Below, in pieces: positions 48,634 through 50,786 of a DNA stretch of 64,000 nt. Position 1 is the stretch's first letter. The number at the start of each line of letters is the position of its first letter. Under the pieces are notes generated by a model that was not told the DNA's origin, ran no database searches, and was given only the letters and a program-made list of their open reading frames with translations. The DNA is taken from contig CM077647.1 of NCBI GenBank assembly GCA_039707465.1, positions 43,647,110-43,711,109 of the forward strand, read 5' to 3'. Position numbers and translations under genes: made by a program. This stretch comes from Rhabdophis nuchalis (Eukaryota > Chordata > Lepidosauria > Squamata > Natricidae).

Positions 48634-48968
48634 TCCCTGATTGAGTGATTGTTTTTTTGTTTGTTTTTTCAAAAGAATTTTATTGGTTTTACAAATTATA
48701 ATGAGGGAAAAGGGTATGTAGAGTTTACAATATATATTTTAGAGCTTCCATATCAGAAATGGTGGTTACATCTGGGTCTTCATACAGCATATTGTTAAAT
48801 AATATATATATGAAGACTAATTATCACAGCTCCTGTGAAGAGGTCCCTTTAAGGGGAGGAGACTCAACGTCATCCCTCTCTGCCCTTTGACTCAACCCAG
48901 AGTCATCCAGACAGAGAACCAAATTAGATTACTGCTGTGTGACATTTTTTTAGATGTGTGTTAGATTT

Positions 48969-49013
48969 TTAGCTGAAGAAGGCTAATAAGCGTGAAATGG
49001 ATCCATCCTGGTC
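48969..49013 (+). ncRNA. Hammerhead ribozyme 1 (diverged)
   Basis: Core CTGAAGA (48973-48979; the N7 base may vary), GAAA (48994-48997), stem III TGGATCCA (48998-49005), cleavage-site TC (49006-49007) and CTGG (49008-49011). Stem II has one mismatch and stem I is weak (TTAG against CTGG). It is framed by a perfect 12-bp inverted repeat, TGTTAGATTTTT before and AAAAATCTAACA after. Activity is doubtful. Confidence 0.6.
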
Positions 49014-49045
49014 TCTTTATTTTCAGCCCTTAAAAATCTAACAAT

Positions 49046-49070
49046 CTTACTGGGTTCGAATCCCAGTAAG
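49046..49070 (+). promoter_or_regulatory. tRNA T-arm-like hairpin with perfect B box
   Basis: CTTACTGGG and CCCAGTAAG form a 9-bp stem around TTCGAAT, and the centre GGTTCGAATCC matches the pol III B box exactly. It lies just 5' of ribozyme 2. In the tandem units the corresponding place has AGTTCAAATCC. A tRNA origin with pol III transcription is inferred. Confidence 0.6.
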
Positions 49071-49076
49071 GGGTAT

Positions 49077-49123
49077 GGCCAGCTGATGAGAGCTAATAAG
49101 CTCGAAATAGATCTATCCTGGTC
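49077..49123 (+). ncRNA. Hammerhead ribozyme 2 (canonical type I)
   Basis: Stem I is GGCCAG (49077-49082) with CTGGTC (49118-49123). The core is CTGATGA (49083-49089). Stem II is GAGCT-AATA-AGCTC (49090-49103), followed by GAAA (49104-49107). Stem III is the palindrome TAGATCTA (49108-49115), then T and C at 49116-49117 with cleavage predicted after C49117. All conserved core bases of the hammerhead are present. Stem III is only 4 bp without a loop, as in ribozymes that cleave best as dimers in tandem transcripts. Stems II and III differ from the other units by compensating pairs. Confidence 0.88.
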
Positions 49124-49220
49124 TCTTCTAATTAATTTATTGATCAGCTCATAAAACTAACACACATACACATATATATTAAAATTTCTTTAAGGGATGA
49201 TTAATAATAATTAATTAAGA

Positions 49221-49267
49221 GACCAGGATGGATCCATTTCGGGCTCCTTAGCCCTCGTCAGCTGGCC
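49221..49267 (-). ncRNA. Hammerhead ribozyme 3 (inverted, canonical)
   Basis: On the minus strand: GGCCAG, CTGACGA, GGGCT-AAGG-AGCCC, GAAA, TGGATCCA, TC, CTGGTC. It is the exact sequence of ribozymes 5-7 in opposite orientation. With ribozyme 2 it forms an inverted pair about 100 bases apart. Confidence 0.88.
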
Positions 49268-49435
49268 ATACTTCCCTACATGGATTTAATAGGTCTCTGT
49301 CTGGATGGTCTCTAGGTTGAGTCGAAGGACAGAGAAGGATGACAAGTTTGTCTCCTCCCTTAAATAGGCCTAACAGGAAGCTGTAACAATATATCCACTT
49401 CATCAATAAAGTCCTGTAGAAAGGATGATGTAATC

Positions 49436-49513
49436 AGGGAAACTGGTTAGCTCAAGGCATAGAGAAGCCTGCTTCGAATGCTGGAGAGCACCAGTTCAAA
49501 TCCCTGTAGGGAA
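49436..49513 (+). promoter_or_regulatory. tRNA-like pol III promoter region of unit 1 (repeated every 346 bp)
   Basis: GGTTAGCTCAAGGC (49445-49458) resembles an A box and AGTTCAAATCC (49493-49503) a B box, with the 35-base spacing usual for tRNAs. The same pair recurs at +346, +692 and +1038. It lies 15-20 bases 5' of each ribozyme. No T-run terminator follows immediately, so transcripts could span several units. Function is inferred. Confidence 0.5.
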
Positions 49514-49517
49514 GTAT

Positions 49518-49564
49518 GGCCAGCTGACAAGGGCTAAGGAGCCCGAAATGGATCCATCATGGTC
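49518..49564 (+). ncRNA. Hammerhead ribozyme 4 (mutated core)
   Basis: Same layout as ribozyme 5, but the core reads CTGACAA and the base after the cleavage-site TC is A, not C (stem I ATGGTC). The core change hits the conserved G8, which is needed for catalysis, and the other change opens the first pair of stem I. This unit should be inactive. Confidence 0.8.
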
Positions 49565-49863
49565 TCTTAATTAATTATTATTAATCATCCCTTAAAGAAA
49601 TTTAACACATATCTAAAAAGACAGCAGCAATTTAATAGGTCTCTGTCTGGATGGTCTCTAGGTTGAGTCGAAGGACAGAGAAGGATGACAAGTTTGTCTC
49701 CTCCCTTAAATAGGCCTAACAGGAAGCTGTAACAATATATCCACTTCATCAATAAAGTCCTGTAGAAAGGATGATGTAATCAGGGAAACTGGTTAGCTCA
49801 AGGCATAGAGAAGCCTGCTTCGAATGCTGGAGAGCACCAGTTCAAATCCCTGTAGGGAAGTAT

Positions 49864-49910
49864 GGCCAGCTGACGAGGGCTAAGGAGCCCGAAATGGATC
49901 CATCCTGGTC
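49864..49910 (+). ncRNA. Hammerhead ribozyme 5 (canonical)
   Basis: GGCCAG 49864-49869, CTGACGA 49870-49876, stem II GGGCT-AAGG-AGCCC 49877-49890, GAAA 49891-49894, stem III TGGATCCA 49895-49902, TC 49903-49904, CTGGTC 49905-49910. Cleavage is predicted after C49904. Confidence 0.9.
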
Positions 49911-50209
49911 TCTTAATTAATTATTATTAATCATCCCTTAAAGAAATTTAACACATATCTAAAAAGACAGCAGCAATTTAATAGGTCTCTGTCTGGATGG
50001 TCTCTAGGTTGAGTCGAAGGACAGAGAAGGATGACAAGTTTGTCTCCTCCCTTAAATAGGCCTAACAGGAAGCTGTAACAATATATCCACTTCATCAATA
50101 AAGTCCTGTAGAAAGGATGATGTAATCAGGGAAACTGGTTAGCTCAAGGCATAGAGAAGCCTGCTTCGAATGCTGGAGAGCACCAGTTCAAATCCCTGTA
50201 GGGAAGTAT

Positions 50210-50256
50210 GGCCAGCTGACGAGGGCTAAGGAGCCCGAAATGGATCCATCCTGGTC
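50210..50256 (+). ncRNA. Hammerhead ribozyme 6 (canonical)
   Basis: Identical to ribozyme 5, 346 bases downstream. Cleavage is predicted after C50250. Cleavage at 5 and 6 would release a 346-nt RNA. Confidence 0.9.
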
Positions 50257-50555
50257 TCTTAATTAATTATTATTAATCATCCCTTAAAGAAATTTAACAC
50301 ATATCTAAAAAGACAGCAGCAATTTAATAGGTCTCTGTCTGGATGGTCTCTAGGTTGAGTCGAAGGACAGAGAAGGATGACAAGTTTGTCTCCTCCCTTA
50401 AATAGGCCTAACAGGAAGCTGTAACAATATATCCACTTCATCAATAAAGTCCTGTAGAAAGGATGATGTAATCAGGGAAACTGGTTAGCTCAAGGCATAG
50501 AGAAGCCTGCTTCGAATGCTGGAGAGCACCAGTTCAAATCCCTGTAGGGAAGTAT

Positions 50556-50602
50556 GGCCAGCTGACGAGGGCTAAGGAGCCCGAAATGGATCCATCCTGG
50601 TC
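50556..50602 (+). ncRNA. Hammerhead ribozyme 7 (canonical)
   Basis: Identical to ribozymes 5 and 6. Core CTGACGA at 50562-50568; cleavage predicted after C50596. It is the last motif before the truncated fifth unit. Confidence 0.9.
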
Positions 50603-50786
50603 TCTTAATTAATTATTATTAATCATCCCTTAAAGAAATTTAACACATATCTAAAAAGACAGCAGCAATTTAATAGGTCTCTGTCTGGATGGTCTCTAGG
50701 TTGAGTCGAAGGACAGAGAAGGATGACAAGTTTGTCTCCTCCCTTAAATAGGCCTAACAGGAAGCTGTAACAATATATCCACTTCA

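Follow-up and report, generated by a model that had tools for sequence, protein, structure and literature searches.

The window, a stretch of 64,000 nucleotides from Rhabdophis nuchalis (assembly GCA_039707465.1, contig CM077647.1, forward positions 43,647,110 to 43,711,109), contains a composite insert within the 3' UTR of a minus-strand L1-type element. The features of the insert are summarized in Table 1. From left to right, it consists of a minus-strand body piece with an E1 end pointing left, two plus-strand hammerhead pieces that finish at an E2 end, a minus-strand hammerhead piece with its E2 end pointing left, and a plus-strand tandem array that finishes at E1, where E1 and E2 are the two types of 3' end described below. 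The order and orientation of the pieces therefore yield two head-to-head pairs, each with one E1 arm and one E2 arm. The left pair belongs to a divergent subfamily, and sequence variation within the right pair is slight.

Table 1. Composite insert and its parts, in positions of the window.
Feature	Positions	Strand	Basis or remark
Whole insert in L1-type 3' UTR	48802..50896		edges approximate, in AT-rich repeat; absent from the paralogous L1 copy 40827-41940
Subfamily B body piece, type E1 3' end pointing left	48825..48969	-	profile segmentation
Subfamily B piece with degenerate hammerhead (core 48973)	48970..49043	+	core pattern, profile
Subfamily B piece: T-arm/B box, complete hammerhead, type E2 end	49053..49170	+	descriptor, profile
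Exact B box GGTTCGAATCC	49053..49063	+	
Hammerhead 2, complete, predicted cut after 49117	49077..49123	+	descriptor; sub-threshold Rfam HH9
Subfamily A piece, head-to-head with array, type E2 end pointing left	49171..49286	-	profile
Hammerhead 3, complete, predicted cut after 49227	49221..49267	-	descriptor
Subfamily A tandem array, 346-bp units, type E1 end	49287..50786	+	repeat scan, profile
Hammerhead 4, core and first stem-I pair broken	49518..49564	+	descriptor
Hammerhead 5, complete, predicted cut 49904/49905	49864..49910	+	descriptor
Hammerhead 6, complete, predicted cut 50250/50251	50210..50256	+	descriptor
Hammerhead 7, complete, predicted cut 50596/50597	50556..50602	+	descriptor
A and B boxes of an array unit, 45 between starts	50140..50195	+	also 49448/49493, 49794/49839, 50486/50531
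(AT)n(TG)n simple repeat directly 3' of E1 end	50786..50884		

The burial in an L1-type 3' UTR, proposed in an earlier note on this DNA, is confirmed by a paralogous L1-type copy at 40827-41940, which runs from ORF1 to the 3' UTR without the insert: 18 bp lie between the matching blocks there, compared with 2095 bp at the array. ORF1 of this copy matches PF02994 at 21.0 bits, just below the curated 22.4, and the ORF1 piece beside the array (51570-51935) gave no PF02994 match. A half-L1 layout, in which the 3' UTR follows straight after ORF1 without ORF2, occurs twice (40827-41940; 48657-48801 with 50897-51935). Elsewhere in the window, a tandem duplication of ~1.75 kb at 13699-17220 (96.8% identical) holds pieces of a CR1-like reverse transcriptase. 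The best-scoring match of the window's CR1-like reverse transcriptase is from tegu (69% over 95% of the query), and snakes supply the stretches of highest identity (83% over 37% and 74% over 86%). Overlapping long reading frames on both strands at 19112-19810 are perhaps a first exon, and the minus-strand frame has no Pfam match. A related 28-bp repeat forms two arrays (30597-30655 and 62195-62253) with similar flanking reading frames.

Hammerhead motifs in the window and across the genome

A tandem-repeat scan of the window found a period of 346 bp over 49284-50787 (4.3 copies, 99% matches), and the near-identical units are spaced 346, 346 and 346 bp start to start, which confirms the fixed period claimed in the earlier note. 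Cores of the form CTGANGA...GAAA lie at 48973, 49083, 49870, 50216 and 50562 on the plus strand and at 49261 on the minus strand. In the seventh motif, at 49524 on the plus strand, both the core (CTGACAA) and the first stem I pair are broken; in the motif at 48973, the 5' strand of stem I is mostly gone and stem II carries a mismatch. Taken by itself, the core pattern offers weak evidence, since 5.95 matches are expected and 13 were seen in the window. The full type-I descriptor (core, stems I-III, A15.1-U16.1 and H17) finds exactly five complete motifs, at 49083+, 49870+, 50216+, 50562+ and 49261-, so that the earlier count of seven hammerhead-like motifs with five complete ones is reproduced at the same positions, with one of the five on the minus strand. 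The descriptor matched only three times in 100 first-order Markov windows, with at most two matches per window, and a chance origin of the hammerheads is thereby rejected. The proposed RNA 5' ends at 49905, 50251 and 50597 are indeed the starts of the CTGGTC that follows each predicted cut.

No match above the gathering cut-off was obtained when the whole window was searched with Rfam. In a lax search of 48600-51000, RF02275 (Hammerhead_HH9), the Rfam ribozyme family nearest to the window motifs, matched at 49066-49138 (33.8 bits, E 4e-6) and at 50201-50273 (25.6 bits, E 0.0017), both below its cut-off of 52. The outcome that the earlier note had named as refuting, a covariance model without a significant score, was not obtained, although the score lies below the Rfam cut-off. 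A plant miRNA family reached an equally low E-value on the inverted copies in the lax Rfam search (E 3.9e-6, 41.9 bits, cut-off 90), so the sub-threshold HH9 matches require other evidence. A microRNA hairpin was itself rejected, as the miRNA matches, all below their own cut-offs, fall within the inverted copies and in the AT/TG repeat. Scans of viral and prokaryote contigs gave no match, as expected for a vertebrate repeat.

The motifs are type I, as had been claimed, but the label canonical is overstated: their stem III comprises 3 bp and a palindromic GATC loop, and the catalytic fold is predicted mainly as a dimer. For the minimal monomer, another fold is favoured at -13.8 versus -11.9 kcal/mol for the catalytic fold. 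The lowest-energy fold of the dimer is a double hammerhead (-43.2 kcal/mol) held by a 10-bp palindromic stem III. As a circle, the 346-nt unit has no unusual stability (-91.4, z -1.1), and the hammerhead is missing from its best fold; both results count against a circle model.

We searched the same assembly (1.918 Gb, 348 contigs) for relatives of the insert. A DNA search with the unit, of a kind that skips very common words, returned 0 candidates. The RF02275 search yielded 25 places from the 58 scored of 145,076 first-look candidates. One of them, L001 (G000:C1:378970325-378970406), is the true HH9 hammerhead at 88.7 bits. Because 11 of 14 control prokaryotes also give sub-threshold HH9 matches, the weak matches were used as addresses only and the loci were then re-tested. 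By covariance model and profile, the family is present at 20 of the 24 other loci; L014, L016, L018 and L025 do not carry it. The 25 loci hold 52 hammerheads, counting that of L001 and one weak match (E 0.09). Among the 20 loci searched with Rfam, besides L001, one relative (L005) passes the RF00163 cut-off (35.3 versus 34). In addition, 20 random 10-kb stretches (200,000 bases, 7,457 N), taken from 100 drawn places on 11 contigs (1.58 Gb), were examined: five of them hold family loci, with six hammerheads; a further weak piece at L045:5010 is left out of the locus count. This density of ~26 loci per Mb extrapolates to ~50,000 loci in the genome (Poisson 95% range, worked by hand, 16,000-116,000). 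The ribozyme family thus seems widespread in this reptile's genome, dispersed and multicopy like metazoan non-LTR retrozymes, and the array, which the earlier note took to be unusual, is instead one insertion of an apparently high-copy family.

The stems could be compared across these copies. The window stems alone (five distinct motif rows) have 3 of 16 pairs changed on both sides, a value that 5 of 500 shuffles reach. With 51 distinct motifs, 92.7% of the cells are paired and 13 of the 16 stem pairs have changed on both sides (57 cells); none of 500 shuffles is as high on any of five covariation measures, with an alignment fitted to the model, related copies and loci found by a hammerhead search. 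When the partners are slid by 1-3 columns, pairing falls to 24-43%. For 21 of the motifs, it was the motif itself that led to its locus being collected; the other 31 came along with loci collected through another motif. By our own tally, the strict descriptor is passed by 17 of the 31 and by 4 of the 21. A C-U mismatch in stem II recurs in many of the 21, perhaps owing to the agreement of that base with HH9. The hammerhead stems are kept by compensatory changes across copies, which argues that cutting matters.

The tRNA-derived head and the ends of the copies

Just upstream of the hammerhead sits a tRNA-derived head with Pol III boxes, a part of the element that the earlier interpretation missed. 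The heads were read against consensus sequences of the A box and the B box. In all 4 of the array units, TAGCTCAAGG and AGTTCAAATCC begin 45 apart, an arrangement seen in none of 200 simulated windows, with patterns chosen post hoc after the sequence had been seen. Among 30 heads (four from the window), 16 contain the B box GGTTCGANTCC without a mismatch, 8 with one mismatch and 6 with two; in 17 body segments, the closest match differs at 4-5 positions. The A-B spacing is 43-45, the tRNA distance, in 23 heads, 66 in two and 23 in five, the last being the window's four and that of L006, where another site matches equally well. In two head copies of the array, both candidate B boxes deviate at two positions.

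With default settings, ARAGORN called one tRNA in the 24 loci, a tRNA-Val(gac) at L017:2066-2139 that ends two bases before stem I. At thresholds of 100, 95, 90 and 80%, it made 1, 5, 10 and 17 calls in the 30 heads and 0, 0, 0 and 4 calls in 600 shuffles; a 20% threshold was discarded as 490 of 500 shuffles matched too. The tRNA-related head with A and B boxes that characterizes tRNA SINEs is present; two observations speak against it, namely that the array head folds as one long hairpin and not as a cloverleaf (z -3.2) and that Rfam calls no tRNA over its cut-off in the window or the 20 loci. Sense TTTT is depleted (18 versus 40.6 expected, sd 8.0, lowest of 200 simulations 24), which fits a Pol III that has to read through.

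The copies at the 20 loci and in the window were joined into 83 chains, 17 of them tandem. E1 is the end of 29 chains and E2 that of 32, and 22 end elsewhere, in windows for E1 and E2 that were fixed post hoc on data already inspected. E1 reads ..GTGGAAC and is usually followed by AATTA and an AT-rich repeat; the AC-rich E2 reads ..AAAACTAACA and is usually followed by a CA or TA repeat. These counts show the fixed 3' end and simple-repeat tail of a tRNA SINE, and the edges of the inserts lie in simple repeats.

Head-to-head junctions number 26, and both ends are typed in 12 of them (nine sequences), of which 11 are E1/E2 and one is E2/E2. At least 11 mixed junctions of 12 at even odds has P = 0.003, a hand-worked value for junctions that at the same locus may be non-independent. 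Tail-to-tail neighbours follow no such rule (4 of 11 typed are mixed). By eye, the five random loci comprise two that are E1/E2 (L026 and L038), one that is E1/E1 (L029), one untyped (L045) and one with a single orientation (L037). The arms of head-to-head pairs have a mean likeness of 0.82, compared with 0.75 for copies at other loci, and the likeness to the own partner is higher in 13 of 15. Because the arms are only slightly more alike, the fold-back of a single cDNA fails to explain most pairs.

The 5' ends cluster at profile positions 145-159 and 64-72, and in the window at 49053; the recurrent breakpoints are the B box and 12-26 bases past the predicted cut. A short module of B box, hammerhead and E2 (~120 bp) recurs at several loci. 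No 5' end falls within 3 bases of the predicted cut (profile 131-136, by consensus reading), and cut linear monomers are therefore not the visible template.

Proposed mechanism and rival explanations

The insert is probably a tRNA-headed retrozyme, that is, a SINE joined to a hammerhead, with a tRNA-derived head, a type-I hammerhead, a body and a fixed 3' end. At 346 bp and 41.9% GC, the array unit falls within the 150-450 bp of the low-GC tandem units with a type-I hammerhead that mark retrozymes. Pol III would transcribe across the tandem units, and the hammerhead, probably as a dimer formed through the palindromic stem III, would cut the RNA into units of ~346 nt, which an RtcB-type ligase would close. 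The reverse transcriptase of another element, which may be a Penelope-like element or a LINE, would start at a different site on each of the two broken DNA ends, E1 on the first and E2 on the second. Tandem copies would derive from multimeric or circular RNA, and the two cDNAs would be joined mid-way. In the complete scheme, an amniote retrozyme is transcribed from a tRNA promoter and numbers tens of thousands of hammerheads, its Pol III multimers self-cleave to give circles of 346 nt, and two-sided E1/E2 insertion in microsatellites leaves head-to-head pairs; this scheme is put forward tentatively and is less likely than not to hold in full. If true, such self-cutting multimers would make the genome of a reptile rich in circular RNA produced by ribozymes, and two-sided E1/E2 insertion would be a mode undescribed for SINEs in the literature searched, of which the coverage was partial. 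The way in which the RNA returns to DNA has a concrete clue in the pairing of E1 with E2 at head-to-head junctions.

The family could also be an ordinary tRNA SINE moved by a LINE, with inversions from twin priming, tandems from Pol III read-through RNA and the hammerhead as a dispensable passenger. The family has a tRNA head, a fixed 3' end and simple-repeat tails, as SINEs do, no copy starts at the predicted cut site, and Anolis Poseidon, a Penelope-type element, inserts in vitro without ribozyme cleavage, its hammerhead mutants doing so equally well (PMC11167929). However, the stem covariation argues that cutting matters, and twin priming alone does not predict E1 arms opposite E2 arms (11 of 12), and we consider this explanation possible but doubtful. 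A GIY-YIG family search of the genome, in which 150 of 1267 candidates were scored with a Pfam model that may miss Penelope domains, gave one match, an SLX1-like exon by peptide reading; that a Penelope-type endonuclease was not found in this search speaks for a LINE. The same result weighs against a Penelope-like element that mobilises the units in trans, as proposed for animal retrozymes. Such an element would account for an AC-rich E2 and for the AT and CA repeats that adjoin both ends, as Poseidon, which carries a hammerhead, cuts and extends both strands at AT-rich DNA and has an AC-rich start inside its template (PMC11167929); mobilisation in trans by this route seems unlikely on present data. 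The insert as a Penelope element in its own right was rejected, since a 346-bp unit is too short to code for a reverse transcriptase and a GIY-YIG endonuclease. A plain satellite that spread by unequal exchange, and whose hammerheads are chance matches or decayed remnants, is suggested by the near-identical array units and by the SINE-derived satellites reported in squamates (PMC10702118), but it is contradicted for the family by the common ends and layout at dispersed loci and by the covarying stems, is rejected in its plain form and is very improbable otherwise.

Relation to known systems

A tRNA-headed retrozyme is an element of a kind already known from salamanders and flatworms. The likeness to newt and Schistosoma repeats asserted in the earlier note is borne out; its interpretation as a whole is partly supported, having overlooked the tRNA-derived head and the inverted, two-subfamily build. 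Animal retrozymes are known, amphibians included (PMC7229834). As described there, the axolotl units of 331 and 353 nt resemble the snake unit in being low-GC tandem repeats of ~350 bp with one type-I hammerhead each, a short stem III, a palindromic loop, a vertebrate host and many copies. The same paper reports a dimeric catalytic fold for amphibian hammerheads, better cutting as dimers for axolotl retrozymes with a short stem III, and closure of one monomer by RtcB in vitro. Unlike the axolotl retrozymes described there, the snake family has a tRNA-derived head, E1 and E2 ends, head-to-head pairs and an amniote host.

By description, the family is also like schistosome SMalpha, a SINE-like repeat with a type-I hammerhead (PMC4918200 and PMC8490949), and a full tRNA is reported in schistosome repeats in the former; the host, however, belongs to a different phylum. 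A newt tandem repeat of ~360 nt with tRNA-like sequence is mentioned in PMC10702118, which also describes squamate sSat1-3. These satellites resemble the snake family, again by description, in being tandem tRNA-related SINE sequence in squamates, but their units of 70-290 nt are shorter than the SINE, and neither ribozyme nor hammerhead is mentioned in that text. Anolis Poseidon (PMC11167929) shares the hammerhead, tandem copies, AT-rich targets and, as proposed for the snake element, an internal start of reverse transcription, a chemistry that the layout of the snake copies resembles; Poseidon codes for a reverse transcriptase and a GIY-YIG endonuclease, whereas the snake element is a short non-coding unit.

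No earlier report of a squamate or other amniote retrozyme was found in the literature searched, which was covered in part. The snake family seems to differ from the known systems in its amniote host, in having a tRNA head on a vertebrate retrozyme, and in a head-to-head layout with two kinds of end. PMC7229834 describes human and mammal type-I hammerheads as isolated and non-tandem, from which no circular RNA is hence expected, and PMC7761336 states that retrozymes seem to have no promoters; both statements would be affected by a squamate retrozyme that carries a tRNA promoter of its own. The conserved amniote hammerheads have been suggested to stem from an ancient repeat (PMC3088659), and a squamate retrozyme would be a living relative of them. 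Amniote HH9 (RF02275) is likewise type I and is the nearest Rfam family, but it is a single conserved locus, and the window motifs, at 25.6-33.8 bits, score below its cut-off.
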